Source of the DNA: Actinocorallia herbida
GTDB lineage: Bacteria > Actinomycetota > Actinomycetes > Streptosporangiales > Streptosporangiaceae
Direction of reading: 5' to 3'
DNA length: 64,000 nt
NCBI RefSeq assembly: GCF_003751225.1
Contig: NZ_RJKE01000001.1
Coordinates: 4,030,001-4,094,000 of the forward strand
Shown: one piece after another, positions 1 through 37,331 of the stretch
Layout of the letters: each line of letters opens with the position of its first letter
How positions within the stretch are numbered: position 1 is the first letter of the stretch
Position numbers and translations under genes: made by a program
Notes under the pieces: model-generated
What the model was told of the DNA's origin: nothing
The model's database searches: none
The model's input: the letters and a program-made list of their open reading frames with translations, nothing else

Positions 1-912
1 GTCATGGAACTGCTCGACGGGCGGGCGCTGGACGAGGTGATCGCCGAGCGGGGCGGGCTGCCGCCGGAGGAGGTCGCCGCGATCGGCAGGGGCGTGCTGC
101 GGGCGCTGCGGCACGCGCACCGCCAGGGCGTCGTGCACCGCGATGTGAAGCCGGCCAACGTGTTCGTCCGCCCCGACGGACGGATCGTGCTCACCGACTT
201 CGGGATCTCCAGCCTCGACGGGGAGGACAGGCTGACGGCCACGGGCTTCGCGATCGGGACGCCGGGGTTCGTCGCGCCCGAGCGGCTGCGTCACGCCGAC
301 CTGCCGCCGGAGCCCGCGGCCGACCTGTTCTCGCTCGGCGCGCTCCTCTACATGGCGCTCACGGGCACCGCCCCGTTCGCCCGCGCGACCCCGCTGGCGT
401 CGCTCACCGCGCCGCTGACGGACCGGCCCGCCCGTCCGGCCGGCCCGCCCGCGCTCGTCGCGGCGATCCTCGGCATGCTGTCCGCGGACCCGGGCAGACG
501 TGCCGCGGCCGCGCACCGGCTGACCGAGCCGCGCGTCACCGCGCCCGCCCGCGAGGCGTTCCGGGGAGTCCGGTTGCTCGGGGCGGTGCTGACCGGCAAG
601 GTCACCGTCCGCGAAGCGCTCCGGCCGGCCCGCGAGCTCAGAGGCGTGCTGATCGGAGTGGTCGCCGTCGCCTCGGTGATGGGGCTCGGCTACGCGCTGC
701 GCGGCGTCCCCGACCCCTCCGGAGACCCCGCTTCGCCCAGCCCGAGTTCCTCGTCCTCGCTCTCGCCCCGGTCGCCGCTCCCCGCTTCCACCCCGGTCCT
801 CGACTTCCCCGTCCCCACCCTTGACCCGGACGACCTGGAATCCCTCATGCCGACCCGGACCTTCGACCTCCCCACGGTGGACGTATGCGACATACAGCCC
901 GACTTGTGCTGA
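1..912 (+). CDS. Ser/Thr protein kinase, C-terminal part (5' truncated by window)
   Basis: Hanks-type Ser/Thr kinase that would phosphorylate cytosolic targets from the membrane. The reading frame is open at base 1, and the first residues (VMELLDGRALDEV) match the kinase hinge, so the ATP-binding N-lobe lies outside the window. Counting from the ATG at 4: catalytic loop HRDVKPAN at about 45-52, DFG at 65-67, APE at 91-93. One membrane segment lies at about 213-232, followed by a Pro/Ser-rich tail of about 70 residues presumably outside the cell. No PASTA repeats are seen. The stop overlaps the start of the next small membrane protein by about 28 bp, so the two are probably co-transcribed. Kinase identity is firm; the substrate is unknown. 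Confidence 0.93.
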   Translation, partial: VMELLDGRALDEVIAERGGLPPEEVAAIGRGVLRALRHAHRQGVVHRDVKPANVFVRPDGRIVLTDFGISSLDGEDRLTATGFAIGTPGFVAPERLRHADLPPEPAADLFSLGALLYMALTGTAPFARATPLASLTAPLTDRPARPAGPPALVAAILGMLSADPGRRAAAAHRLTEPRVTAPAREAFRGVRLLGAVLTGKVTVREALRPARELRGVLIGVVAVASVMGLGYALRGVPDPSGDPASPSPSSSSSLSPRSPLPASTPVLDFPVPTLDPDDLESLMPTRTFDLPTVDVCDIQPDLC

Positions 913-1471: not shown

Positions 1472-3625
1472 CTACCCGGCGGACCTGAGCTCGGCGAGCG
1501 CCCGCTCCGTCTTGAGCGTGCCCGGATGGTCGGTGCCGAGCACGCGGCGCTGTATCGGGCCGAGCTCCTCGAGTCGCTTTCTCGCAGTTCTTCTTCTGCC
1601 CCGTTCCAGAAGAATCTTCGCCAATTCATAGCGAGTGCTCAGGACGTGTCCGTGCTCAACGCCGAAACCACGGACGAGTCCGGGAAGAACCGCCTGGTAT
1701 TCGTCCTCCGCCGCGGTGAGCCGTCCCTGCCGGTGGAGGACGGCCGCGATGCGCTTGCGCGTGACCAGGGTGTCGGGATGGTCGGAGCCTAGAATGCGTG
1801 ATTGGTCGGCGTGGACGTCACGGCATTCGCGTTCTGCCTCGTCGAGTAGTTCGGACGTGCGCGAGTGCAGATGCGCGAGAACGGCTCTGGCGATCAACGT
1901 ATCGGGATGGTCCGCGCCGAGGGTCGCGTGCCGCCGCCTGATCACTTCCCGATACTGCTCCTCGGCCGTTGCCGTCTTTCCCTGACCGGCCAGACACAAC
2001 CCGAGTTCGTGACGGGTCGCCAGGGTGCCGGGACCGTCGGCCCCAAGGGATCTCTCGCGGAACACCAGAACTTCACGGACGATGCGCTCGGCGCTTCCCG
2101 GATCACCGAGCAACCGGGTCGTCTGCGCCTGGACCAGGCGAAGCGAAAGGACGACCGGATGCTCGTCGCCGAGTCTTGCGGTGGCCTTCAACGTTTCCTC
2201 GATGAGCTGGGACGCGGTGAAGTACCGGCTGTTCCAGCCCAGGGCGGCCGCGATCTTCTCGGCGACCTCCGCGGCCTGTGCCAAGGAGGGGTCGTCTCCA
2301 TGGGAGGCCTTCGCCTGAAGTAGCTCGGCCAGGTGGGGAAGGAAGGACGACCATGCCGGGGAATGCTCGGGATTTCGGAATTCGAGGCGGGCGACCGCCG
2401 CGGCCAGCAGGTCGAGGCAGACGTTCTCGTGGCGGTCCGGCTCGTCGTCGTCGAGGCGCAGGATCTCCACGACCAGCGGATGGACGGTCAGCGTTTCGGC
2501 ACCGGATCCCGACGATCCCAGGGTGATCAGGCCCGTGTGCGCCAGCGCCCGCAGACCCGCGGCGCTCCGTGTCCCGTCGTCCAGGCCGCATCCGCGGGCG
2601 AAGACCTCGTGGTCGAGCAGTTCGCATGGGAAGGGCACGCCGCCCGCGAGCCTGGCGAGGACCCGCATCTGTGCGCCGGCGGAGGGATGCCCGTTCGCGA
2701 CGAGCGCATCCAGGGTCAATCGCCAGGTGCTCCGCACAATGGATCGATCGTCGGCGCCGACCGCCATCAGCTGGGGAAACCGCTCGGTGAGCGCCTGGGC
2801 GTAAGAGGTGAAGGAGCGTTCGGGATTGAACGGCGAGGTGAGGTGGAGTCCGGCATGATGCAGTGCCAAAGGCAGTCCGCCCAGCCGGTCGGAGAGGTCG
2901 CGGGCCTCCTGAAAGGATCCCGCTCGGGGGGCGAAGTCACACAGGATCCGCGCGCCCTGTTCGGCGGGAAGCCAGCCGACGGTGTGCGGGGTGACATGCC
3001 GTCCCCAGGCCAGGGGGTCGCTGTTGCGGCTGGTGACCAGGATGAGGCCCGCAGAGGTGGGCCGGATCCAGCCCGAGTTGTCCTGTACCGCGCGTCCGTG
3101 TCGGGACAGCGTGTGCGGGTCGTCCACATTGTCGATGACCAGGAGCCAGCCGTTCCGAGATTCCAGGAACCGCCACAGCAGGTCCGCGGGATCACGTCTG
3201 CCCTGCGACACCGCCTCGACGTCCTGGGCCGTGGCGCCCAGGGACTGCGCCAGGGACATCAGATCCGAGAACAGGGAATGCGCTTCCGCTCCGGAGACCC
3301 ACCACACATCGCACCCCGCGGAAAGGCGCTCATCGGCGATCTGGAGCGCGATGGTCGTCTTTCCGGTGCCGCCCAATCCACCCAGGAGATGCACTGCCTG
3401 GTCGGGTCGCTGTGCGAGGGCGCGGAGCACACCGAGGATCTCCGATCTGCCGCGCACCTGTGCGGGAAGCCTGCCGGTCGGAGGGCGGAGAATTCCCCGG
3501 GGCGCACCGGAATCGGCCGGCCGTTCCGAGGCATTCGGTGTGCGCCGCAATTGGCCCCAGGCGATCAATGTCGTCGCCATCGCGACCAGAAGACCTCCCG
3601 CAGCGATCACCGACTCGAGATCCAT
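1472..3625 (-). CDS. NB-ARC/TPR STAND ATPase, membrane-anchored
   Basis: A 717-residue signal-transduction ATPase of the STAND class. One N-terminal membrane helix (about 7-24) is followed by an NB-ARC-type NTPase with P-loop GGLGGTGKTT at about 82-91 and a Walker B-like LLVIDNVDD. The C-terminal third holds at least four tetratricopeptide repeats of the kinesin-light-chain type, recognisable from recurring LGxDHPxTLxTR strings. STAND proteins act as switch-like sensors: repeats bind a trigger and the ATPase oligomerises. No separate effector domain is fused, so output may depend on the TM anchor or on the DUF397 protein encoded 8 bp downstream. ATG start at 3625; the 70 bp upstream separate it from a gene on the same strand. 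Confidence 0.9.
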   Translation of the reverse strand: MDLESVIAAGGLLVAMATTLIAWGQLRRTPNASERPADSGAPRGILRPPTGRLPAQVRGRSEILGVLRALAQRPDQAVHLLGGLGGTGKTTIALQIADERLSAGCDVWWVSGAEAHSLFSDLMSLAQSLGATAQDVEAVSQGRRDPADLLWRFLESRNGWLLVIDNVDDPHTLSRHGRAVQDNSGWIRPTSAGLILVTSRNSDPLAWGRHVTPHTVGWLPAEQGARILCDFAPRAGSFQEARDLSDRLGGLPLALHHAGLHLTSPFNPERSFTSYAQALTERFPQLMAVGADDRSIVRSTWRLTLDALVANGHPSAGAQMRVLARLAGGVPFPCELLDHEVFARGCGLDDGTRSAAGLRALAHTGLITLGSSGSGAETLTVHPLVVEILRLDDDEPDRHENVCLDLLAAAVARLEFRNPEHSPAWSSFLPHLAELLQAKASHGDDPSLAQAAEVAEKIAAALGWNSRYFTASQLIEETLKATARLGDEHPVVLSLRLVQAQTTRLLGDPGSAERIVREVLVFRERSLGADGPGTLATRHELGLCLAGQGKTATAEEQYREVIRRRHATLGADHPDTLIARAVLAHLHSRTSELLDEAERECRDVHADQSRILGSDHPDTLVTRKRIAAVLHRQGRLTAAEDEYQAVLPGLVRGFGVEHGHVLSTRYELAKILLERGRRRTARKRLEELGPIQRRVLGTDHPGTLKTERALAELRSAG

Positions 3626-23789: not shown

Positions 23790-23793
<4 letters not shown>
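21952..23793 (+). CDS. VMAP: vWA-MoxR-associated protein
   Basis: A 613-residue protein occupying the place of VMAP in MoxR-vWA ternary systems. No enzymatic motif is evident. Two parts are visible: an N-terminal region (1-200) with the recurring conflict-system block TRLELALIYAGLAGRRGLRPFLML, and a C-terminal VMAP-C-like region (about 380-600) with DLYPDSGDFDLG, LPMSYLEKGIRIVDLAVV, PVVLTEEDM and a final GFGYVVWDYGG strand. In the published model VMAP links the MoxR/vWA chaperone couple to an effector. GTG start at 21952; stop overlaps the MoxR start by 4 bp. Family assignment rests on context and C-terminal pattern. Confidence 0.78.
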
Positions 23794-24745
<952 letters not shown>

Positions 24746-24749
<4 letters not shown>

Positions 24750-27700
24750 TCGAGGCGCTGGCGAAGGCACTCGCGCGGGTGGGGTCGAGCCTCGGAGGGC
24801 CCGAGCTCACCGCGGACGAGATCGCGGACATCCTGCTCCTGACGGCCCGGTGGCCGACCTCCGACGACACCGGGCCGAGGGACTTCGCCGAAGCGCCCGC
24901 CTCGCCGTCGCGCGCCGTCGCCCTGCCCGGTGAGGCGGCGGAGACGCTCGTGGAGCCTGTTCCGGCGCCGCACCGCGTGCCGGACCAGCTCGTCCGTGCC
25001 CGGCGCGGCCGGACGCTCGTCGGGCTGGAACGGGCCCCGCGCACGAACCGCGCCCTCCTGGCCGGTGGCTCCCGCCGGCCGCCCCCCGGCGCGATCCGGC
25101 CGCGTGACTCGCTGGCCCTCGCCGAGGCGCTGACCCGGTTCAAGCGGCTGACCGGGCCGGGACGGCTCGAGGTGGACGTCGAGGCGACCATCGAGGCCAT
25201 CGCGCACACCGGCGGGTGGGTGGTCGTGACGCACCGCCCTCCGGCGCGGCGCTCGTTCGACCTGGCCCTCGTCGTCGACGAGGGCCTTTCCCTGGGCATG
25301 TGGGAGGAGACGGCGTCCGTCCTGTCCGAGCACCTTCTGCAGAGCGGCGCCTTCAAATCCGTCACACGGTGGACGATGCGGGTCGAGGACGGCGCGGCCC
25401 GGTTGCGGATCGCGGACGGCGGGCCGGGCGCGCACACCGTCTCCCCGGACGCCCTGATCGAGCCGTCCGGGCGCCGGATCGTCCTCGTCATGACGGACGC
25501 GGTGGGCGACCGCTGGTACGGCGACGCCCCGTGGCGGGCGCTGGAGCTGTGGGCGCGTGCGATGCCCACGGCGCTGCTGCACATGCTGCCCCAGCGCTAC
25601 TGGCCGGACACCGCGGTGGGCGAGCCCTACGCCCTGGCCAGGGCGACCAGGGCCGGTGAGGCCAACATCGACTATCTGAAGAAGTTCGCGTGGTGGGCGA
25701 GCCCGGACTCCGCTTCCGCGGGGGTTGCGGGCGCTCTGGTGGAACGCAGTGAGAGAGGCGTGGTCCTGCCCGTCGTCGGGCTGGACCCCCGGGATCTGGC
25801 GCGGTGGGCGGCTTCCGCGGCGGGCGGCGCGCACTGGGTCAAGGCGATCACGACGAGCAGGCCGGTGGGCGTGCCGGCGCCGAGCACCGTCGCGGTCACC
25901 CCGGAGGAACGGGTCCGCAGTTTCCGGCACCGCGCCTCGCCCGGGGCGCTCAGGCTCGCCCAGGCCCTGTCGCACGCGCGGGAACTGAACATCCCGCTCA
26001 CCGACGTCCTGCAGCGGGAGCTGATCGGCGACTCCGGGTTCGGGCATCGCGCCGAGGTGCTGGTCAGCGGGCTGGTCGAGGTGACCGAGGAGGCGACGCG
26101 CAGCTACCGGTTCGTCCCTGAGGCCGTGGGCGCCCTGCAGGAGGGCGTGACGCCGTTGGAGCAGGCGCACTGCTTCGAGACCGCGCGGCACGCGCTGACC
26201 GGCGGAGATCCGGACCTCGACGACAAGCTCGACCGGATGCTGCGGGACGACTCGGCGCTCGACGACCTGCGTCCGGAAGTGCGCCCGTTCGTGGTTCTGG
26301 CCAGGGACATGGCCGCGCAGATCGGCGTGGCCATGGGTGAGCCCGCCCGTGACCGGGAGAGGGAGGCGGCGGCCGCGGCGGCGCCCGGCGAGGAGTTCAC
26401 GGAGACCCCGGCCGGGTCGTTGCGCGAGGTGCTCGCCGCGTGCCTCGCGCGCCTCGAACCGAAGGGGGTCGTCAGCGTCCTGCACCTCGACGGGGCCGCG
26501 ATCACCACCCACGTCCTGGAACGCGACGGCGTCGAGGTGCCGCGCGCGACCAGGGCCGCGCAGACGCTCTGGCGGCGGCTCGAATCCGCCGCGGATCCCG
26601 CCGAATCGGTCAGGGCCGCGGTCCGGCGGATGGGCGAAGCGCCCCTGGTCGTGGTGGTGACGGTACGACGGCACCCGATGGCCGGCCGGACCGTGGGATG
26701 GCTGCGCGAAGAGCGCCCCGACGCGATGGTGGTCTTCGAGGAGAACGCCGATGTGGCCGGCGAGCTGGCAGGGGCCGTCGAGAACGAGCCGCTGCGGATC
26801 GCCTACGACCTGGTCACGTTGGAGGAGGCCGGCGGGGTGTTCACGCTGCGTCCGATCCCGCTGTTCGAGCGCGGCGCGCGTCCGGGCGAGACCCGGACCG
26901 ATCTGCCGGTGCGCACAGGGCCCGCGCGCGAGGGTGTGGTCCTCGCGGTCCTGCCTCGCGGGCACCGTCCGGGGGAGAGGTTCGTGGCGGTGGGGAGGGC
27001 CCGGGGGCACCCCGGCGGCAGGCTCTTCGCGACCCTGGTCCGCCCCGGCGAGGTCGCCTTCTCCGGGGCGGGCGAGGTGGTGCCGGAATCACGGGGCTGG
27101 GAGACCGTCACCGCCTCGGTGCCTCGCACGATGCGCGCGTGGTCGGTGCCGACCCGCGTCGTCCTCGCCGTCGAGCTGAGCGGCCCCGCCGAGACCGTCG
27201 CCGCACGGCTGCGCTGCGCCCGGCGGGTCATCGGGGTCCTCGGCGCCGAACTGCTCGGCGATCTCACGTTCACCCTCATCGCCTACGGGCAGCATGTCTT
27301 CGGGCGCGACCGACGTCGCGGGCAGCCCGACGTCCTCGACTGGCCCGCCGTGTCCCAGGACGCGGCGGTGCTAGCGATCCACACGTTGGAAGAGGCGGAG
27401 CCCCTCGCCGAGACGTACCGCGGCCACGCGATGGTCGAGGACGCGCTGGCGAGGGTGGCCGAACTCGGCACGGCCGCCGTGCCCGGCCGTGACGCGCTGG
27501 TGCTGATCGGGGACGGGCTGCCGCACCCGCCGCAGGCGAGCCCGTCGGACGTCCTGCCCTGCCCGGAGCGCCACGACTGGCAGGGCGTCCTCACCGAGAT
27601 CGTCGAGGGACGTCCGGGTCTGCGGGTCGGGGCGGTCACCGAGCGGCCGACCGAGGACTTCTGGCGTGAGATCGGGCAGGACGCGCTCGCCCGCCCGGCC

Positions 27701-27790
27701 ACCGTGGACGTCCGCGAGTTCTGCGCGGATCTCGGGCTGGTCCCGGCGGAGCCGCCGCGGCTCATGTTCCCGATCCGCGTCGGGCGGTGA
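24746..27790 (+). CDS. SAV_2336-type protein with two vWA-like domains
   Basis: A 1014-residue partner of MoxR. The N-terminus (about 1-40, ELTADEIADILLL) matches SAV_2336 N-terminal-related proteins. A first vWA-like domain (about 165-330) contains FDLALVVDEGLSL in the MIDAS position, where DxSxS is replaced by DxxxS, and IVLVMTDAVGDRW at the fourth strand. A middle region (500-790) is low in recognisable motifs. A second vWA-like domain near the C-terminus (about 810-930) has VVLAVELSGP and ALVLIGDGLPHP and resembles the C-terminus of the protein at 32625-34046. Degenerate metal sites suggest protein-protein binding. GTG start with 4-bp overlap with MoxR. Confidence 0.8.
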
Positions 27791-29497: not shown

Positions 29498-31681
29498 TCA
29501 GTCTCCGCCCAGATTGACCATGAAGATGGCGACCCTGGAAAGGATCACGAGGCCGACCAGACAGAACCCGACTCCCACCACGAGGCGGACGGCCGGGGCG
29601 CCGCCGCGGTGCCGCTCACGGTGCCGGGCCCGAGGCCGCCAGAACCGCTTCCGCCAGAACGGGCGGGGCGTCTTCGGCGGCACGCCGGGATCGGACGGGA
29701 GGATCTGTGTCACGGCGCCGCCCTGGCCGTCGTCGTCCGGGCCTCGCGGAGGTTCGGGGGCGTCCTGATCGTTCTGGCCGCCCTGGCCGCCCTGGCCGCC
29801 CTGGCCACTCTGGCCGTCCGTGCTCTCATCGGAAGGAGGCTCGTCGTCCAGGAGCCGCTCGATGCGGCGCTTCGTCTCCGCCTCCAGCCGTGCGCGCGCC
29901 ACAGGCTCCTCCACGAGGATCGTCCAGGGGGAGTAGCCCTTCAAGGTCCCGATCCGTTCGAGGGCGGCGAGCCTGAGCAGGGCCCGGTCGGGCTCCGCGT
30001 ACAGACCGGTCATCCGGTTGAGCGAACCGGCGCGTGGGGCGTCCCCGTACGCCAGCCTGAGGAGCTCGCGAAGGCGCGTGTACGCGGCCTCGTCGGCCGC
30101 CGCAGGCTTCCTCGGGTCGGGCGGGGGGCTCAGGTGGAAGATCGCCGCCGAGAGGAAGTAATGCCTCTCCAGCAGCTCGATGATCTCCCCCGGGACCTCC
30201 GGGCGGAGGGCGGAGAGGTCGCGTTCCAACCGGTCGATGATCCGCGCATTGATCTGCACGGCCTTCGGCCAGCGGGTGGCGAAGGCGATCAGGTCGGTGA
30301 GGGCCATGTTGGCGAAGGCGGTGCGCGCGGCCCCGGCCGGGAGCAGGTTCGCGACGATGAGATCGACGTCCTGCGTCTTCTCGCCCATCCGCAGCATCGC
30401 GGACAGGAGTTCCTCGCGGAGCCCTCCGGCCATGCCCGAGATCTCGTCGATGTGCTTCTCGGTCAGCGGCGAGAACACCGCGGCGAGGATCGCGTCGAGG
30501 ATCTGGGACCGCACGTGCGGGTCGGTCTTGTCCAGCGTGCCCTCCTGGAGGATCTGCGTCTCCCTGACCGACTCGACGGCGTCGTCGCGCTCGGTCCGGG
30601 TGGGCGAACGCGCCGCGAGACGCGTGATCTCCGTCAGCGCGTTGTCGATGCTCGGGCGGTTCCGGTTCCTGACCGCGACATTGAGCGCGGAGATCAGGAA
30701 CTGGAGGGTGGGCGCGGCCTCGGTGACCGGTGGACGCACCGCGGGATGCCCCTCGACGTCCACGACGGTCTGGGCCGGTTCCTTCGGCCGGTGCGCGTGC
30801 TGGAGGAGTTCGAGGGCCCGGGCGCCGTCCTGGAGCCGGAGCGGTTCGTTCACCCGGGTCAGCAGCTCGATGGGCTCGGCGGGGTCGTCGAACGAACGGA
30901 GCCAGTCGTGGTACTGCCGGGCGACGGGGTACTCGGCGGGCACCTCCGCGGGCTCGCCGAACAGGAGATTGTGGGCGCCGGAGCGCTTGTCGTGGGCGAA
31001 GGTCAGTCTGAGGCTGTGGTCGGAGACACTGGACGCCCAGGTCGCCGCCGAGTACCTGGTGCGCATGCCGTAGGGCAGGAGCGACGCCACCACGTCGAGG
31101 AACTTGAGGCGTTCGTCCAGCGGCACGTAGTCGCAGCCGTACACGACGACCTGCCGCCCGGTCAGCAGCAGGGCGGCCGCGCTGCGGGCCTGCGCGGTGA
31201 CGGCGGGCCCGATCAGCGCGGCGTTCATCGGCGCGAGCGAGCACCTTGCGGGATCGCGGTTCTCCGGCTGGTCGAGGCCCCGGATCCCGCGGTAGAACTC
31301 GGTGTAGGTGACGGGCCGGTCGGCGACATCGGCGTAGGGGAAGCAGAAGTAGCGGGTGTAGGCGAAGGCCCGGCCGAAGCCGTCGACCTGCCCTGGCGGC
31401 GCCGCCTCCTGGATGGCCATGCCGATACGGCCCTGTTCCTGTTCCCTGCCCGCCCAGCTCAGGACGATCTGGGGCAGATGTTCCGGTGTCCCGGTGCTGA
31501 ACCGGTGCAGGATCTCCGCGTAACCGTCGGCGTCGATGTCCCCGGTGCTGCAGGCGAGGATCTGGTAGTCGGTGCCGGGGCGCTTGCCGTGCAGGGCCCA
31601 CTGGCAGTCGAGTTCGACGGGGCGGGCTCCGTCGTTCACACGCCTGGTCCGGAATCTGCCGCCAATTTTCCGCCCAGCCAT
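29498..31681 (-). CDS. GAP1-like protein with C-terminal membrane anchor
   Basis: A 727-residue paralogue of the preceding protein. N-terminal domain contains FCFPYADVADRPVTYTEFY; the middle domain has LLLTGRQVVVYG and LLPYGMRTRYSAATWASSV; a long helical region spans about 290-620. A low-complexity acidic/Gly-Gln linker (GGQ repeats) leads to one membrane helix (GVGFCLVGLVILSRVAIFMV) at the extreme C-terminus, so the body is cytosolic and tail-anchored. The ATG at 31681 (MAGRKIGG) lies 46 bp inside the GTPase gene end, showing tight coupling. The membrane anchor is the main difference from the second paralogue. Confidence 0.84.
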   Translation of the reverse strand: MAGRKIGGRFRTRRVNDGARPVELDCQWALHGKRPGTDYQILACSTGDIDADGYAEILHRFSTGTPEHLPQIVLSWAGREQEQGRIGMAIQEAAPPGQVDGFGRAFAYTRYFCFPYADVADRPVTYTEFYRGIRGLDQPENRDPARCSLAPMNAALIGPAVTAQARSAAALLLTGRQVVVYGCDYVPLDERLKFLDVVASLLPYGMRTRYSAATWASSVSDHSLRLTFAHDKRSGAHNLLFGEPAEVPAEYPVARQYHDWLRSFDDPAEPIELLTRVNEPLRLQDGARALELLQHAHRPKEPAQTVVDVEGHPAVRPPVTEAAPTLQFLISALNVAVRNRNRPSIDNALTEITRLAARSPTRTERDDAVESVRETQILQEGTLDKTDPHVRSQILDAILAAVFSPLTEKHIDEISGMAGGLREELLSAMLRMGEKTQDVDLIVANLLPAGAARTAFANMALTDLIAFATRWPKAVQINARIIDRLERDLSALRPEVPGEIIELLERHYFLSAAIFHLSPPPDPRKPAAADEAAYTRLRELLRLAYGDAPRAGSLNRMTGLYAEPDRALLRLAALERIGTLKGYSPWTILVEEPVARARLEAETKRRIERLLDDEPPSDESTDGQSGQGGQGGQGGQNDQDAPEPPRGPDDDGQGGAVTQILPSDPGVPPKTPRPFWRKRFWRPRARHRERHRGGAPAVRLVVGVGFCLVGLVILSRVAIFMVNLGGD
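29774..29818 (-). repeat. 9-bp coding minisatellite (GGQ repeats)
   Basis: Five head-to-tail copies of a 9-bp unit (CTGGCCGCC on the + strand), three perfect, within the linker of the membrane-anchored GAP1 gene. They encode Gly-Gln-Gly repeats and could vary in copy number by slippage without breaking the frame. Confidence 0.7.
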
Positions 31682-32625
31682 ATCAGGGGCTCCATCACGT
31701 TGATCGGGCTGACCTTCCCGCGGATGACCGGTCGGGCATCGGCGGGGTCGGGGTTCGGCATGGTGTTCTGGTAGTCGTGTTCGTCGAAGAGGTTCGACGG
31801 GCCGGTGTAGAAGCCGATCGCCGAGGTGACGAAGAACTTGACCCGGTCCGGATGGAAGTTGGCCTTGATCTCGTTGATCATCTCCGCGCCGTACCCGTCG
31901 GCGGCGATGTCGCACAGCCGCTTGAAGAGCTTCTCCGCCTCGTGGTCGGCGACGCTGGGGAACCCGTGCCTGTCGTCGGGGTCGTAGGTGATGAGCCCAC
32001 TGCGCAGCGCGGTCTGCATCACCCGGACGGAGTCGAACTTCGTGACGCAGACCGCCATGTGGTGCGGCAGGTACCCGTTCACGAAGTCCGCCGGGTCGGT
32101 CCGCTGGTTGAGCTGCCCGATCACGCCGTGGAAGTACTCGAAGGCGTCTCCCCGGTCGTACTCCCGGATCGGGTCGAAGAGGAAGATGATGCCGCGGCTC
32201 TCGGCGAGGTCCTCGACCAGCGCGTCCTGCCCCCGCGACGGCACGTCCCTCGACAGGTAGAGCTCCCCGCTCACGTCGACGAGGTCCAGGCTGATCCTGA
32301 CGGTCCGGCTGCGGGCCTGCTTGCGGCCCCAGCCACCGACGCGCTCCACCGAATTGCCCTGCAGGATCCAGCTGTAGCGGTCGATGTTCTGGGTGGGGCT
32401 CGGGAAGGTCCTGACCTCGGCGATCATGGAGTTCGTCAGGCGCCGGAGCGCGCCGTCGGAGGCGGGGTCCCGCCCGAACAGACGCCAGGTGGAGGCGCCC
32501 GTCTTGCTGCTGAGCGCGAGTTTGAGCGCGGCGAGGAAGGTGGTCTTCCCGCTGCCGGGGGTGCCCCACATGGCGATCCGGCGCTGCGGGGCGTCCTCGC
32601 CCGGGGTCATCGGCGGCTCGCTCAT
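31636..32625 (-). CDS. P-loop GTPase of the GAP1-associated conflict system
   Basis: A 329-residue GTPase with P-loop GTPGSGKT at 21-28 (MWGTPGSGKTTFLAAL), a G3-like strand SLDLVDVSGELY in place of DxxG, and a base-recognition strand HMAVCVTKFDS where TKxD replaces NKxD. Family members operate as the switch in GTPase-GAP1 systems. The ATG at 32625 overlaps the stop of the vWA-like gene by one base (TGATG), and the 3' end overlaps the membrane-anchored GAP1 gene by 46 bp. This places it second in a four-gene operon. Cytosolic; likely recruited to the membrane by tail-anchored GAP1. Confidence 0.87.
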   Translation of the reverse strand: MSEPPMTPGEDAPQRRIAMWGTPGSGKTTFLAALKLALSSKTGASTWRLFGRDPASDGALRRLTNSMIAEVRTFPSPTQNIDRYSWILQGNSVERVGGWGRKQARSRTVRISLDLVDVSGELYLSRDVPSRGQDALVEDLAESRGIIFLFDPIREYDRGDAFEYFHGVIGQLNQRTDPADFVNGYLPHHMAVCVTKFDSVRVMQTALRSGLITYDPDDRHGFPSVADHEAEKLFKRLCDIAADGYGAEMINEIKANFHPDRVKFFVTSAIGFYTGPSNLFDEHDYQNTMPNPDPADARPVIRGKVSPINVMEPLIWLGGKLAADSGPGV

Positions 32626-34046
32626 CAGGGCACCTCGATCGGGAACGGGACCCGCAGGAGCGGGTCGGCGGTCAGTCCCAGGTCGGCGATGAGCGCTGCC
32701 ACGTCCACGGCCTCGGCGCTGTACGGGGTCCCGGACCCCAGCCGTCCCCACGCGGGTCCCGGCGAGCCGGACGTCTTGTCCAGCAGCGCCGCGAACCGCA
32801 TCCCCGGCCTGGCGTCCAGCGCGTCCGCGAGGTCCGACCAGTCGAGGCGGGACGGGCAGGGCAGCACCTCTTCGGCGTTGACCCGGGCGGGGTGCGGCGG
32901 TCTGGCGCCGACGAACAGCAGCGCGGTCAGATCGTGGAAGGGCTCCTCCGGCAGCCGCTCGTGGACCGTGTCGAGGACGCACTCGACCGCCGCCGCATGC
33001 GGGTAGCCCTGCTCGATCCCCGTGCGCTCCTCCAGCAGATGGAGCTGCTTGAGCGTCTGCTCGGGGGTCTTCCGCCAGGTCACGGGCTGCACCGGCACGT
33101 CGGAGTGGCGGCGGCGGTACTCGTGGGGGCGGTAGGAGATCAGCGAGGTCTCGGTGTTCGGGGCGTTGCGCACCTCGTGCAGGATCTGGGCGGTCCTGCG
33201 CAGCCGCTCGTCCACGTGCTCCTGCGGTCCGCTCATCTCCACGGCGCAGATGAGGTGCGCGGTCCGGCCGGCGAGGGAGGGCACGCGCATGGGCATGTCC
33301 TGCATCAGCGCGTCGAGGACGGGGCGGGTCCCGCCGGGGCTTCCCGGGAGCCCGTGGAAGCGGACCCTGCCCGGGCGCAGCAGTTCGGCCTCGAAGGTGT
33401 GCTCGCCCGAGGGGAGGATCCAGCTCTCCGCCGAGACCTCCTCGTACCTGTCGAAGCCGTCTCGGCTGACCACGACGAAGGCGGTCCCCTCCGCGGGGCT
33501 CTCCCGTGCGATCCGCACGGTGTGGAGGACCCGGGCCCCCTGCCGGGTGCCCTGGCGGAAGAGCTGGATGCCCGTCGGCTCCATGCCGCCGCTCTCGTCC
33601 GGGCGCAGGACCATCAGTTCGTAGACGCGGGTGAGGCGCTCCCGGGAGATCACGTCGCGGAGCACGTCGCCGGTGCGCAGACCGTGCCCGCCGATCAGCC
33701 GCGAGCGCGTGGCCGTGACCTCGCGCAGCCAGCGGAGGGCAGGGCCGGGCAGGGAGCCGTCAGGCGTGGACTGGACGCAGATGACCCCGATATCTGGCGA
33801 TAGTGCACCAAATCCCCCTGCATCTACGGCACTTCCCCAGGTGTCGGCGAGTTCCGCCATGAGTTCTGCCCAGGGAATGGTCGCCCGGTAGCGGCAGCGC
33901 GGGACCCCGGCGGGATTGCGCCAGATCTCGAAATGGGTGATTCCCTCGGTGGCGATGTCCGAGACGACGAGGCGTTGGTTGTCCGCGAGGTCGAGAATCG
34001 CGCCGGCGAGTGCCTCGTGTGTCAGGGACTCATCCGGTCGGGTCAA
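32625..34046 (-). CDS. vWA-like domain protein, first gene of GTPase-GAP1 operon
   Basis: A 473-residue protein of unassigned N-terminal half. The C-terminal part (from about 260) is a vWA-like domain with HLICAVEMSGPQ, a middle TSLISYRPHEY, and LLFVGARPPHP, followed by VLPCPSRLDWSDLADALDARPGMRFAALL. The same order (AVELSGP, DGLPHP, VLPCPERHDWQGVLTEIVEGRPGLRVGAV) ends the MoxR-linked protein at 24746-27790, so these domains are homologous. I chose the TTG at 34046 because AGGAGG lies upstream at proper distance; ATG codons at 34139 and 34160 lack such a site. Likely the adaptor that links the GTPase arm with the MoxR arm. Confidence 0.75.
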   Translation of the reverse strand: MTRPDESLTHEALAGAILDLADNQRLVVSDIATEGITHFEIWRNPAGVPRCRYRATIPWAELMAELADTWGSAVDAGGFGALSPDIGVICVQSTPDGSLPGPALRWLREVTATRSRLIGGHGLRTGDVLRDVISRERLTRVYELMVLRPDESGGMEPTGIQLFRQGTRQGARVLHTVRIARESPAEGTAFVVVSRDGFDRYEEVSAESWILPSGEHTFEAELLRPGRVRFHGLPGSPGGTRPVLDALMQDMPMRVPSLAGRTAHLICAVEMSGPQEHVDERLRRTAQILHEVRNAPNTETSLISYRPHEYRRRHSDVPVQPVTWRKTPEQTLKQLHLLEERTGIEQGYPHAAAVECVLDTVHERLPEEPFHDLTALLFVGARPPHPARVNAEEVLPCPSRLDWSDLADALDARPGMRFAALLDKTSGSPGPAWGRLGSGTPYSAEAVDVAALIADLGLTADPLLRVPFPIEVP

Positions 34047-34195
34047 CGACGCCCTCCTGTCACCCGGTTCGGGATATTCCCACAGGTATGGTAGATCAGC
34101 ATAGGGGCTGGAAGGCAAGTGGCGCTCTCGGGGTTCCATGGAATTCGTGTTACGTTCCACAGATGTCCTTATCCGGCCAATGCTCGAATTTGATC

Positions 34196-34226
34196 TTGAT
34201 GTGCTGTCGCGGGAATCCCGATATTA
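34196..34226 (+). promoter_or_regulatory. candidate promoter of DUF4407 gene
   Basis: TTGATT (34196-34201), 19-nt spacer and TATTAT (34221-34226) lie about 64 bp before the DUF4407 ATG in an AT-rich stretch of the divergent intergenic region. The spacer is slightly long, so activation by another factor is possible. Confidence 0.4.
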
Positions 34227-34289
34227 TGCCTGAGCATGGTTTCCCGCCCTCCTGGGTCCGTGTTTCGGTGCCGTCTCGAAGAGGATTCG

Positions 34290-35828
34290 ATGGAGAACCG
34301 AGATTTCCTGATCAGACTCTCCGGTGCGCGGACCGAAATCTTGGCGCAATGTCCGGCCGAGCGGGCGAGATTCCAGGGCGTGGGTGGGGCGATCCTGACC
34401 ACGAGCGTCCTGGCCGGGCTGTCGATGGCGTTCGCGCTCACCACGGCGGTCGGGCTCTCCGTGGTCCTCGCCGTTCCCGCGGCCGTGCTCTGGGGCCTGG
34501 CAATTCTCAGTCTGGACAGATGGCTGGTCGCGTCCATTCCGGGATCGGGCCCGCGCCGCTTGCGCATCGCGCTTCCCCGGCTGCTGCTGGCGCTCCTGCT
34601 GGGATTTGTGATCTCCACCCCGCTGGTGCTGCAGATCTTCCATTCCGAGATCGATGCCCAGATCGTGGAGATCCAGCAGCGGGAGGCCGAGTCCTTCGCC
34701 AAGGTGCAGCAGGAGGGTGAGGTCGGCAAGGAGGTGGCGACATTGCGCGCCTCCGTCACGGAGTTGCAGTCCGTCATCGACTCCAACGGCGAGAAGGTCA
34801 GCGATCCGGCGCAGGATCCGAAGCTGAAGGCGCTGACCGCCGAGCTGGCCGAGCAGCAGGGGCTCAAGGACGACTATTACCGGGAGTGGCAGTGCCAGCT
34901 CTACGGCGGAGACGGGTGCGCCAAGCCGGGGAATGGTCCCCTCGCCGTCGACAGTAAAGCGAATTACGACAAGGCCAAAAATCGGGTGGACGATCTCACC
35001 ACCCAGATAGAGGACCGTAAGCAACAGCTCACCTCGACCGATGCGGAGGCCAGGGAATCCAGGCTCGCCGCCGCGAAGGAGGAACTCCCGGGCGTGCGGA
35101 ACCGGCTCGGCGTGGCTCTCGAGAGGCAGGCCGATCTACAGGAGGCGTTCGACGCGCAGAACCACGCGAACAACGGCCTGTTGATCAGGCTCCAGGCGCT
35201 CAACGAGGTCTCCGGCAAGGACGCGACCCTGAACGTCGCCCGCCTGCTGCTGTTCCTGCTCTTCCTCGTCATCGAGTGCCTGCCGGTCGCCGTCAAGCTC
35301 ATGCAGAAGGAGGGGAGCTACGAGAGGTTCGCCAGACTCGACGACGAGAAGAGGATACGGGAGGCGAGAAGCGCGCAGTCCGCTCCGGCGCGGGCGCCGG
35401 TCACCGGCGGCCCGCCCTCCGTGGCCCCGACGCGAGTACGGCGCGGAGGACGCGTCGCCGACGGCCCCGGGGCCGATCTGCTCGACCTCTGGGAACGGGG
35501 ACCGAGACACGAGTACGCGTCCGCGCCGACCGTCGTGCCCGTCGAGGACGCGCGGGAGACCGAGGTCGTCGACACCCAGGCCGACGGTGACCCGTGGCCG
35601 GAGTCCGAGCCGCGGCAGGACCGAGGGATCTGGGGGATCAGGGCGCGGCCGTCAGACCGGGAGGAGCAGGACGACGGGGAGGCGCGCGACCTATTCGCCG
35701 AGGAGGAGCTCGCCGCCACCGGAGACCGCAGGGCCGCGGACTCCGGCGGCCTGCGCGACGGGAAGGCCGAACGCCCTCCGCAGTCCGGCGGGCATCCGGT
35801 CTTCGAACTGTTCCCCGAAGATGAATAG
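34290..35828 (+). CDS. DUF4407 membrane protein with periplasmic/extracellular coiled coil
   Basis: A 512-residue DUF4407 protein. Membrane helices lie at about 31-53, 55-74, 96-117 and 310-330; between the third and fourth runs a roughly 190-residue charged helical/coiled-coil segment (two Cys flank YGGDG). The C-terminal 170 residues are acidic, disordered and cytosolic. DUF4407 proteins resemble sensors or scaffolds; the function is unknown. ATG at 34290 with GAGGA upstream is preferred over an earlier in-frame ATG. It is divergent from the GTPase-GAP1 operon and 12 bp before the kinase gene, so kinase and membrane protein likely form a signalling pair. Confidence 0.85.
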   Translation: MENRDFLIRLSGARTEILAQCPAERARFQGVGGAILTTSVLAGLSMAFALTTAVGLSVVLAVPAAVLWGLAILSLDRWLVASIPGSGPRRLRIALPRLLLALLLGFVISTPLVLQIFHSEIDAQIVEIQQREAESFAKVQQEGEVGKEVATLRASVTELQSVIDSNGEKVSDPAQDPKLKALTAELAEQQGLKDDYYREWQCQLYGGDGCAKPGNGPLAVDSKANYDKAKNRVDDLTTQIEDRKQQLTSTDAEARESRLAAAKEELPGVRNRLGVALERQADLQEAFDAQNHANNGLLIRLQALNEVSGKDATLNVARLLLFLLFLVIECLPVAVKLMQKEGSYERFARLDDEKRIREARSAQSAPARAPVTGGPPSVAPTRVRRGGRVADGPGADLLDLWERGPRHEYASAPTVVPVEDARETEVVDTQADGDPWPESEPRQDRGIWGIRARPSDREEQDDGEARDLFAEEELAATGDRRAADSGGLRDGKAERPPQSGGHPVFELFPEDE

Positions 35829-35840
35829 GGCACGGCCCGA

Positions 35841-37331
35841 GTGAGCGCCCCGGGCCGGACGCTCAACGGCCGCTACCAGATGCTCCGTCCGCTGGGCACG
35901 GGGGGCATGGGGAGCGTCTGGCTCGCCCGCGACCTGCGCTTCGGCCGTGAAGTCGCGCTCAAGGCGCTGCGCGAGTACGGACCCGCCGACGCCGTGGACG
36001 AGCGGAGGCGGCGGGCGGCGCGTGAGGCCAACGCGCTCGCCGCGCTCGACCACCCCGCGGTCGTCAAGATCCACGACGTGTTCTGGGAGCGCGACGACCC
36101 CTGGATCGTCATGGAGTACCTCGCGGGCCGGCCACTCGCCGAACCGATCGCCGACGGCCCGGTCGACCGGGCCCAGGCGGCGCGCATAGGGCTCGACGTC
36201 CTCGGCGGGCTGGAGGCCGCGCACGCGGCGAAGATCATGCACCGCGACGTCAAGCCCGCGAACATCATCGTCGAGAGGGAGCCCGCCGTCCTCGTCGATT
36301 TCGGGCTCGCCTGGATGGCGGGGGCCTCGTCGCTGACCGCCACCAACACCATCATGGGCACCCCGGAGTACATGGCGCCCGAGCGCTTCGCCGACGGACG
36401 GGCGGGACCGGCCTCTGACCTGTGGTCGCTCGCGGTCACCCTGTTCCACGCCATCGAGGGGTACTCGCCGTTCCGCAAGGGAGACCAGGGGTTCGGCTCG
36501 ACGATCTGGGCGGTCATGAACGAGCCGGCGCCGGAGGCCGTCCGGGCGGGGCCGCTGGCCGGCTGCCTCGCCGCGTTCCTCCACAAGGATCCGGAGAGCC
36601 GTCCGCCGGCGTCGGCGTTCCGCAACGCCCTGCGCGACACCATCGCCCAGAGCATGGAGCGACCCGGGAGATCCGCCACCCGCCGGCTGCGGAGGCAGGA
36701 ACGCGTGCCGCCGGGTTCCGGCCCGCCACGCGGGTCGGCGAAGGCAGGACCGGAGGGTTCCGCGGCCCGCGAGGCCGCCGACCTCGCGGTGCTGCCGCCG
36801 AGCAGACTGCGGGACGCGCTGCTGCGCACGGATCCGGCGAAGACGGGCATGGTGCTGCTGGCCCTGCCCAGGCCCGTCGTCGCGGAGGTGCTGTCCGTCA
36901 CCGCGCCGGAGGAGGCCGCGTCGCTCCTCACCGCGATGTCGGCGGGCCCGGTCGAGGCGGCGCGCGCCCTCCAGATGCTGGCGGTGGTGCCCGCGGCCCG
37001 CATCCTCGACCACATGGACGCGCCGGCCGCGGGCCGGGTCGTCGCCGCCCTCGTCCCGGTGGGCGACGCGGCGCGCATCCTGGCCAGAGTCGACCCGAGG
37101 GCCGCGGCGGCGGTGCTCCAGGCGCTGCCGCACGCCGCCGCGCTCGGTCTGGTGAAGGCCATGCGCGAGGCGAGATCGGGACGGGTCCTCGGATTCCTTC
37201 CCCCGGAGCACGCGGCCCGGCTGCTGCGCGACCTGGATGAGGGGCTCCGCGACCGTCTGCTCACCGGGTTGGACGGCTCGGCGCGGGCGCCGGTGCGGCG
37301 GCATCTGCACGAGGATCAGTCGAAGTCGTAG
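35841..37331 (+). CDS. Ser/Thr kinase with MgtE-N-like helical repeat C-terminus
   Basis: A 496-residue soluble kinase. Glycine loop GTGGMGSV (19-26), catalytic Lys K41, HRDVKPAN with D136, DFG at D153, APE at about 179-181: all active-site residues are present. After residue 310 come repeated short helices of the MgtE N-domain/superhelical type (LPPSRLRDALLRTDP, LLALPRPVVAEVLS, LLTAMSAGPVEAARAL, ILDHMDAPAAGRVV). In magnesium channels and FliG such repeats bind partners. No membrane helix. GTG start 12 bp after the DUF4407 stop, so co-transcribed. The 3' end overlaps the convergent ammonium transporter gene by 16 bp. Confidence 0.9.
   Translation: MSAPGRTLNGRYQMLRPLGTGGMGSVWLARDLRFGREVALKALREYGPADAVDERRRRAAREANALAALDHPAVVKIHDVFWERDDPWIVMEYLAGRPLAEPIADGPVDRAQAARIGLDVLGGLEAAHAAKIMHRDVKPANIIVEREPAVLVDFGLAWMAGASSLTATNTIMGTPEYMAPERFADGRAGPASDLWSLAVTLFHAIEGYSPFRKGDQGFGSTIWAVMNEPAPEAVRAGPLAGCLAAFLHKDPESRPPASAFRNALRDTIAQSMERPGRSATRRLRRQERVPPGSGPPRGSAKAGPEGSAAREAADLAVLPPSRLRDALLRTDPAKTGMVLLALPRPVVAEVLSVTAPEEAASLLTAMSAGPVEAARALQMLAVVPAARILDHMDAPAAGRVVAALVPVGDAARILARVDPRAAAAVLQALPHAAALGLVKAMREARSGRVLGFLPPEHAARLLRDLDEGLRDRLLTGLDGSARAPVRRHLHEDQSKS

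Follow-up and report, generated by a model that had tools for sequence, protein, structure and literature searches.

The closest described relatives of the locus studied here are the DO-GTPase/GAP1-N2 systems (Kaur et al. 2020, PMC7159879). In the part of that paper covered here, these actinobacterial systems place a GTPase ahead of a GAP1-like protein and include vWA proteins. Their GAP1-like proteins are often fused to C-terminal transmembrane segments, an active kinase is present in ~10% of GAP1-N2 neighbourhoods, and the systems are predicted to act in conflicts. A DO-GTPase-family protein also lies beside phage-shock operons in Gammaproteobacteria, for which the portion of PMC11237479 covered predicts a role in membrane-related stress. 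Here we analyse a locus of Actinocorallia herbida that resembles the DO-GTPase/GAP1-N2 systems in its gene order, its vWA protein, its actinobacterial host and the C-terminal membrane segment of its GAP1-like protein. The window, meaning the whole stretch of DNA analysed, spans 64,000 nucleotides (G000:C1:4030001-4094000) of a 9.8-Mb single-contig genome. On the balance of evidence, and with modest confidence, we read two of its genes, encoding a DUF4407 membrane protein and a protein kinase, as the arm that combines membrane sensor and kinase in a divergent DO-GTPase/GAP1-type signalling cassette of five or six genes with two divergent arms. The pair travels with the GTPase switch module and is therefore probably the sensing arm of one system. 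The cassette is made up of the following features (window positions).

34290-35828, + strand: DUF4407 membrane protein, 512 amino acids (Pfam PF14362, 2.2e-79; hydropathy)
35841-37331, + strand: Ser/Thr protein kinase with MgtE_N-like C-terminal superhelix, 496 amino acids, GTG start (Pfam, structural model, PknB chain 5u94)
34140-34289, 150 bp: intergenic region between the divergent arms, presumed promoter region (from gene coordinates)
32625-34139, - strand: vWA protein P0003, with an N-terminal alpha/beta part, a beta-rich part and a vWA fold at ~290-491 (model)
31636-32625, - strand: divergent DO-GTPase2-like GTPase P0004 (motifs and profile-profile match)
29498-31639, - strand: GAP1-like protein a, P0005, likely GTG start at 31639, C-terminal hydrophobic segment
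27793-29496, - strand: GAP1-like protein b, P0006, a paralogue of P0005 without a strongly hydrophobic segment

The open reading frame (ORF) coordinates place the DUF4407 and kinase genes 12 bp apart, as an earlier note on this DNA had stated. The minus-strand arm, divergent from this pair, comprises four genes (vWA, GTPase and the two GAP1-like paralogues), and the start of the GTPase gene overlaps the stop of the vWA gene. The 3' end of the kinase gene abuts an ammonium transporter gene (Pfam).

The DUF4407 protein was searched for in 120 relatives, and 34 regions around matches were fetched in addition to the window. A match of any strength was found in 29 of the 120. The full set of DUF4407 protein, kinase with superhelix, vWA protein, GTPase and GAP is present at 17 places (the window, L031-L045 and L048). 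Two regions of one same-genus genome, L046 and L047, lack the kinase, and L047 retains the rest of the cassette, the other module, a few kb away. No GTPase was found within the stretch in L049-L064; in the genome of L050 (G112), such GTPases lie at distances of ~11 and 20 kb from the DUF4407 gene. The source genome also holds a second complete cassette at 0.84 Mb (L031, G000:C1:827000-846999), whose DUF4407 protein is 57% identical to the window copy over residues 4-373.

A further set of named loci consists of the best 80 of 102 relatives from one scan with two peptide patterns derived from the alignment of the cassette, which favours close relatives. It was split into 56 close and 24 distant loci at 490 bits, a threshold set after seeing the score gap from 493 to 430. 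The kinase lies directly downstream of DUF4407 in 54 of the 56 close loci, and the superhelix is visible in 48; at six close kinase loci the sequence ends 846-1235 bp after DUF4407, and L204 ends after 77 bp. Where at least 2.3 kb of downstream sequence is available, a superhelix kinase comes next in 47 of 48 close loci, and the pairing pointed out in the earlier note is thus conserved. Every close locus with at least 5 kb upstream (53/53) carries the GTPase there on the opposite strand, along with GAP and vWA matches in the locus. The close loci span 14 named genera and three metagenome-assembled genomes (MAGs). As recognised from its sequence, the close cassette occurs in many soil actinobacteria.

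The association was also observed at the level of the class, in a scan of 296 genomes that scored the best 7 (GTPase) or 11 (superhelix) first-look candidates per genome. The alignment of the cassette GTPase matched 24 of the 296, while the kinase C-terminus matched 249 at E <= 1e-5. Full-length superhelix matches (162.7-212.4 bits) number eight in seven genomes, two of them in the source genome, and these seven are exactly the same-family (f1) genomes that carry the cassette GTPase. The next match reaches 75 bits over ~100 residues; the weaker matches are presumably ordinary MgtE domains.

The distant loci bear on which part of the cassette is older. The GTPase is present in 19 of the 24, and 16 of these 19 have GAP and vWA genes as well. 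No superhelix kinase was found in the whole stretch of any of the 24, three of which (L220, L224 and L239) end <350 bp after DUF4407. In family f19, GTPase, GAP and vWA genes lie near DUF4407 and the superhelix kinase is absent, and in Actinomadura oligospora (L230) DUF4407, vWA, GTPase and GAP form one co-directional run. We built a quick tree of 91 DUF4407 rows (89 different), which drops the named loci L204 and L212 and uses 12 of the 34 fetched regions plus the window. All 56 kinase-linked rows fall on one side of a branch (Shimodaira-Hasegawa-like approximate likelihood-ratio test, SH-aLRT, 95). The kinase trait requires one change, against a shuffled mean of 28; the "no kinase" label is uncertain for L220, L224 and L239, given their short downstream sequence. 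The DUF4407 protein and the GTPase module are probably the older unit, and the superhelix kinase was probably gained once, the alternatives being a single loss elsewhere or the replacement of an older kinase. One gain is likely rather than firm, because the tree lacks a fixed root and was flagged for long branches. The distant loci L217 (3479-8195) and L229 (12519-14900), which have no kinase, each contain an ATPase that matches both AAA and AAA_lid_6 twice, and in L217 a 4Fe-4S/radical SAM gene lies between the ATPase and DUF4407.

The earlier note described the pair as attached to a conflict locus. The linkage holds and is even understated by that wording, since DUF4407 stays with the GTPase genes in clades that lack the superhelix kinase; the conflict function did not gain in the same way, divergent DO-GTPase kinship being the sole pointer to it. 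The cassette could instead be a housekeeping regulator of the envelope or of development without a conflict role, with DUF4407 sensing the state of the wall or septum, a reading that we regard as doubtful. The breadth of genera among the close loci suits it, as does the lack of any recognised toxin-like effector in a window whose scanned flanks hold mainly metabolic genes. The patchy spread among the 120 relatives speaks against it, as do an NB-ARC and TPR protein gene in the window (1475-3625, - strand), 25 kb away, and the kinship with DO-GTPase2 proteins, whose systems are predicted to act in conflicts in the part of PMC7159879 covered.

The DUF4407 protein matches PF14362 over nearly its full length (profile positions 1-294 of 297; 267.3 bits against a curated cut-off of 31.3). 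Its hydrophobic segments peak near residues 31-49, 54-72, 98-116 and 319-337 (hydropathy), with segments three and four ~200 residues apart. The loop between the second and third segments contains 3 K/R and no D/E. We used the positive-inside rule to orient the protein and, from the segment positions and this K/R-only loop, infer an N-in topology with residues 117-318 outside and an acidic cytoplasmic tail. Of the long extracytoplasmic coiled coil claimed in the earlier note, the ~200-residue region is borne out; that it folds into an antiparallel coiled-coil hairpin is suggested by the topology and by weak matches to coiled-coil families. Sequence searches against the PDB gave no solved relative at a meaningful E-value (best 0.15), and in the literature found, as far as its text was covered, DUF4407 figures in tables only. 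One stretch of the external region stands out.

34893-34946, + strand: conserved two-cysteine stretch, codons 202-219, halfway along the external region, probable tip of the hairpin

Residues C202, Q203, L204, Y205, C210, G214, G216 and A219 are invariant in 17/17 DUF4407 homologues. The stretch reads CQLYGG..C..G.GPLA, and the decade 201-210 has a mean column entropy of 0.71, compared with 1.3-1.8 for most surrounding decades. The pattern C[EQ]...C is present in all complete named loci, close (55/55) and distant (21/21). The tail behaves differently: the strict motif EDExLRxM was found in 31/55 close vs 0/21 distant loci, and an acidic tail end in 33/55 vs 0/21. Envelope sensing would fit the predicted topology together with the conserved two-cysteine stretch.

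The kinase protein consists of a Pkinase domain (Pfam 2.7e-43) followed by MgtE_N repeats (PF03448, 2.1e-15, two stretches). MgtE_N scores 57.5 bits against a curated cut-off of 25.9, and 61.3 bits when the C-terminus is used alone. FliG_M is under its cut-off for the whole protein (6e-5) and reaches 29.2 bits against a cut-off of 25 with the C-terminus alone. For comparison, 17 kinases were picked by position from the 17 complete cassettes; that of L042 was hand-picked, a stronger generic kinase match lying elsewhere in its stretch. Pkinase and MgtE_N both match at E <= 0.001 in 17/17, and a profile of the C-terminus against PDB sequences returned MgtE (2yvy, 9e-6) and FliG (3hjl, 3e-5). The MgtE_N/FliG-like repeats proposed in the earlier note are thereby confirmed.

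36750-37325, + strand: superhelix, kinase residues 304-495, 15 short predicted helices (model m5bcdf0212314)

In the model, block means of the predicted local distance difference test (pLDDT) are 90-98 over residues 304-495, except for the last block, and the linker 276-302 has low confidence. In L031-L048 the linker that joins kinase domain and superhelix is of very variable length and frequently enriched in proline, glycine or charged residues. The kinase domain of the model is PknB-like (chain 5u94, Z 30.6, root-mean-square deviation (rmsd) 2.3, 250 aligned). Kinase domains took up the results of fold searches run with the entire kinase, and the superhelix assignment rests on sequence and on the shape of the model. 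K41, E62, D136 and D153, which we take to be the active-site Lys, Glu, HRD Asp and DFG Asp of Hanks-type Ser/Thr kinases, are kept in 17/17, and by these residues the protein qualifies as a putative active kinase of this type. Assignment to the PASTA kinases (PknB/Stk1 equivalog, NCBIfam NF033483) was rejected, with 206.3 bits against a cut-off of 450 over residues 5-228 only. The PADLOC matches to PD-T4-6 and mad6 were set aside too, as they span the generic kinase domain.

It was considered whether the superhelix is a Mg-responsive or ligand-binding regulator as in MgtE, so that the kinase would report ion status and DUF4407 would be a mere anchor. Pfam MgtE_N and the PDB MgtE chains are indeed its best matches. 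FliG chains, however, match at nearly the same level, Pfam lists no CBS or transporter domain for the kinase protein P0002 (no CBS pair or transmembrane Mg2+ channel at E up to 1), and the C-terminal part and linker vary in length. In addition, MgtE_N/FliG-like ARM folds form the dimerising head domains of flagellar E-ring proteins, according to the part of PMC13023049 covered. Taken together, we judge an MgtE-like role very improbable. The FliG matches and the 15-helix superhelix would also suit self-association, whereby clustering of DUF4407 would drive the kinase into dimers, rings or filaments under the membrane and activation would come from assembly rather than tail binding. FlgY, which has an MgtE_N-type head, dimerises in the E-ring (PMC13023049, same part). 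The oligomer interface is conjecture, however, and we consider assembly as the trigger unlikely.

The signalling scheme that we infer comprises an outside coil, ligand or redox sensing, docking or assembly through the superhelix, phosphorylation of cassette partners and possibly a role in defence. The DUF4407 region between segments 3 and 4 would extend beyond the membrane as an antiparallel coiled-coil hairpin, whose tip could form a disulphide, and would detect an envelope event. The change at the hairpin would pass to the acidic cytoplasmic tail. The superhelix may serve for docking or assembly and tether the kinase to the DUF4407 tail or to the GTPase complex. Possible targets of the kinase are this tail, the vWA protein and the GTPase/GAP; phosphorylation of one of them would shift the GTPase switch. 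We tentatively propose, as a possibility short of an even chance, that Streptosporangiaceae and their relatives possess a previously undescribed system for membrane signalling or defence. Its external coiled-coil hairpin would carry a two-cysteine tip sensitive to redox state or to a ligand. This tip would switch the kinase, which would dock or assemble through its MgtE_N/FliG-like superhelix and in turn set the state of the membrane-located divergent DO-GTPase-vWA-GAP complex. The phage-shock neighbour of a DO-GTPase-family protein would fit, rather than prove, such an envelope input.

Several observations weigh against the sensor-kinase arm. The close locus L212, with 8.8 kb downstream, has no kinase, and 17 of the 24 genomes of the class with the cassette GTPase lack the superhelix kinase. 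The locus counts are not independent events, since the genomes compared are relatives and cassette loci served to build the profiles. Two Frankia-type loci carry another kinase without superhelix on the opposite strand, just upstream of DUF4407 (L234:5876-8257 and L237:6260-8413, 146 and 149 bits to the kinase profile), and the kinase link may therefore predate the superhelix. The window DUF4407 tail keeps the acidic end without the LRxMxDTR motif, and the strict tail motif is missing in 24/55 close loci, which makes the case for tail docking weak. Among 15 DUF4407 proteins whose stretch contains no GTPase, two show the cassette cysteine spacing, ten have a pair 15-19 residues apart, two have none and one is cut there. 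Finally, a clear effector domain was not found.

The two-cysteine tip had been considered a mark of GTPase-linked DUF4407 alone, an idea that was dropped on the ten unlinked proteins with a wider-spaced pair. Since pairs also occur in unlinked proteins, the tip appears general to DUF4407 and differs in spacing. The wider-spaced pair, aligning with the cassette tip, is found in the DUF4407 proteins of L052, L053, L055-L061 and L064.

If the sensor-kinase arm is read correctly, DUF4407, a domain of unknown function, gains a concrete conserved partner set, and GTPase systems of unknown trigger gain a membrane sensor and kinase as a candidate input. Localising or assembling a bacterial kinase by means of FliG/MgtE-type repeats would be unusual. 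The whole cassette is compact enough for transfer into a laboratory host. We found no published description of the pairing of DUF4407 with an MgtE_N kinase in a search outside which most subscription papers and all supplements lay.

The G-K-T, D..G and TKxD motifs of the GTPase are invariant in 17/17 homologues. The window GTPase itself scores 23.5 bits against DO-GTPase2 (PF19993), under the cut-off of 27, and 15/17 homologues match at E <= 0.01 (best 8e-7). In an hhalign comparison, the cassette GTPase profile matched 15 canonical DO-GTPase2 rows with a probability of 99.2 and an E-value of 7e-20 over 245 columns; four unrelated control profiles gave E 0.17-0.61. The GAP1 link is weaker. GAP1-M was detected in 9/17 GAP1a homologues (best 0.0035, E up to 0.1), the window protein P0005 itself having no match, and GAP1-N2 and GAP1-C were not listed for the 17 at E up to 0.1. 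In profile comparison, with L161 (start cut) left out of the GAP1 alignment, 48-54 columns of GAP1a aligned at a probability of 8-51% by the cut used, with controls at <1%; canonical GAP1-N did not align in P0005. P0005 residues 4-287 match P0006 at 3e-37. A strongly hydrophobic C-terminal segment is present in 14/17 GAP1a proteins, and the best 19-residue hydropathy of P0006 is 0.92. These comparisons suggest that the cassette GTPase is a divergent DO-GTPase2 relative and that the link to GAP1 is weak.

The vWA protein was assigned because vWA domains align with residues ~290-491 of its model (mee72ac2a79e7), the best chain being 8ft6 (Z 18.5, rmsd 2.6, 168 aligned). DxSxS, which we take to be the metal motif of vWA domains, is found in 0/17, the first metal-site residue being E in 16 and D in 1. 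As to the FNIII-repeat component of GAP1-N2 systems, the model of the vWA protein shows beta strands at 173-262. PADLOC returned kinase-domain families for the kinase (among the best 25 of 34 matches), weak P-loop matches for the GTPase and JetC at 0.04 for DUF4407; it returned nothing for the vWA protein and the two GAP1-like proteins.

Convergent with the GAP1-like operon, a MoxR-like AAA gene (AAA_5, 5e-8) is directly followed by the gene of a 1014-amino-acid protein (window 23790-27790, + strand), whose C-terminus shows homology to the vWA protein of the cassette. Of 57 other close cassettes examined, one has a strong MoxR match (59% identity) beside it, and four have the N-terminal part of the 1014-amino-acid protein. 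A kinase fragment is truncated by the window edge (window 4-912, + strand). The source genome further contains two canonical DO-GTPase2/GAP1-M systems, near 2.49 and 7.10 Mb, each with two GTPase matches.

Compared with known proteins, the cassette kinase shares with PknB/Stk1-type kinases the fold (the match to 5u94) and the catalytic residues. It differs from them at the C-terminus, which is an MgtE_N-like superhelix, with no PASTA domain in its Pfam list. By Pfam and PDB sequence profile this superhelix belongs to the same repeat family as the MgtE N domain and the FliG ARM-like repeats. Unlike in MgtE and FliG, the repeat is fused to a kinase, spans ~190 residues and has no CBS domain or channel listed.

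At the level of the whole cassette, a kinase and a vWA protein are present. In the kinase theme of the GAP1-N2 systems, as far as PMC7159879 was covered, the set is kinase-PP2C-vWA with a standalone vWA, whereas the cassette has DUF4407 and the MgtE_N kinase; no PP2C was found among the window ORFs given to Pfam, some of which may be wrong frames. The main text of PMC7159879, supplements lying outside this scope, does not mention MgtE, FliG or DUF4407. The window GTPase also departs from the DO-GTPase/GAP1-N2 pattern in that no zinc-ribbon cysteines were seen before its P-loop. The Walker-B glutamate, called conserved in DO-GTPase2 in the covered part of Kaur et al. 2020 (PMC7159879), is E in 3/17 (including the window), G in 12, D in 1 and R in 1. 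GAP1-N2 is undetected and GAP1-M is weak. Our best reading files the cassette as a putative divergent relative of the DO-GTPase/GAP1 systems rather than as a proven GAP1-N2 member.

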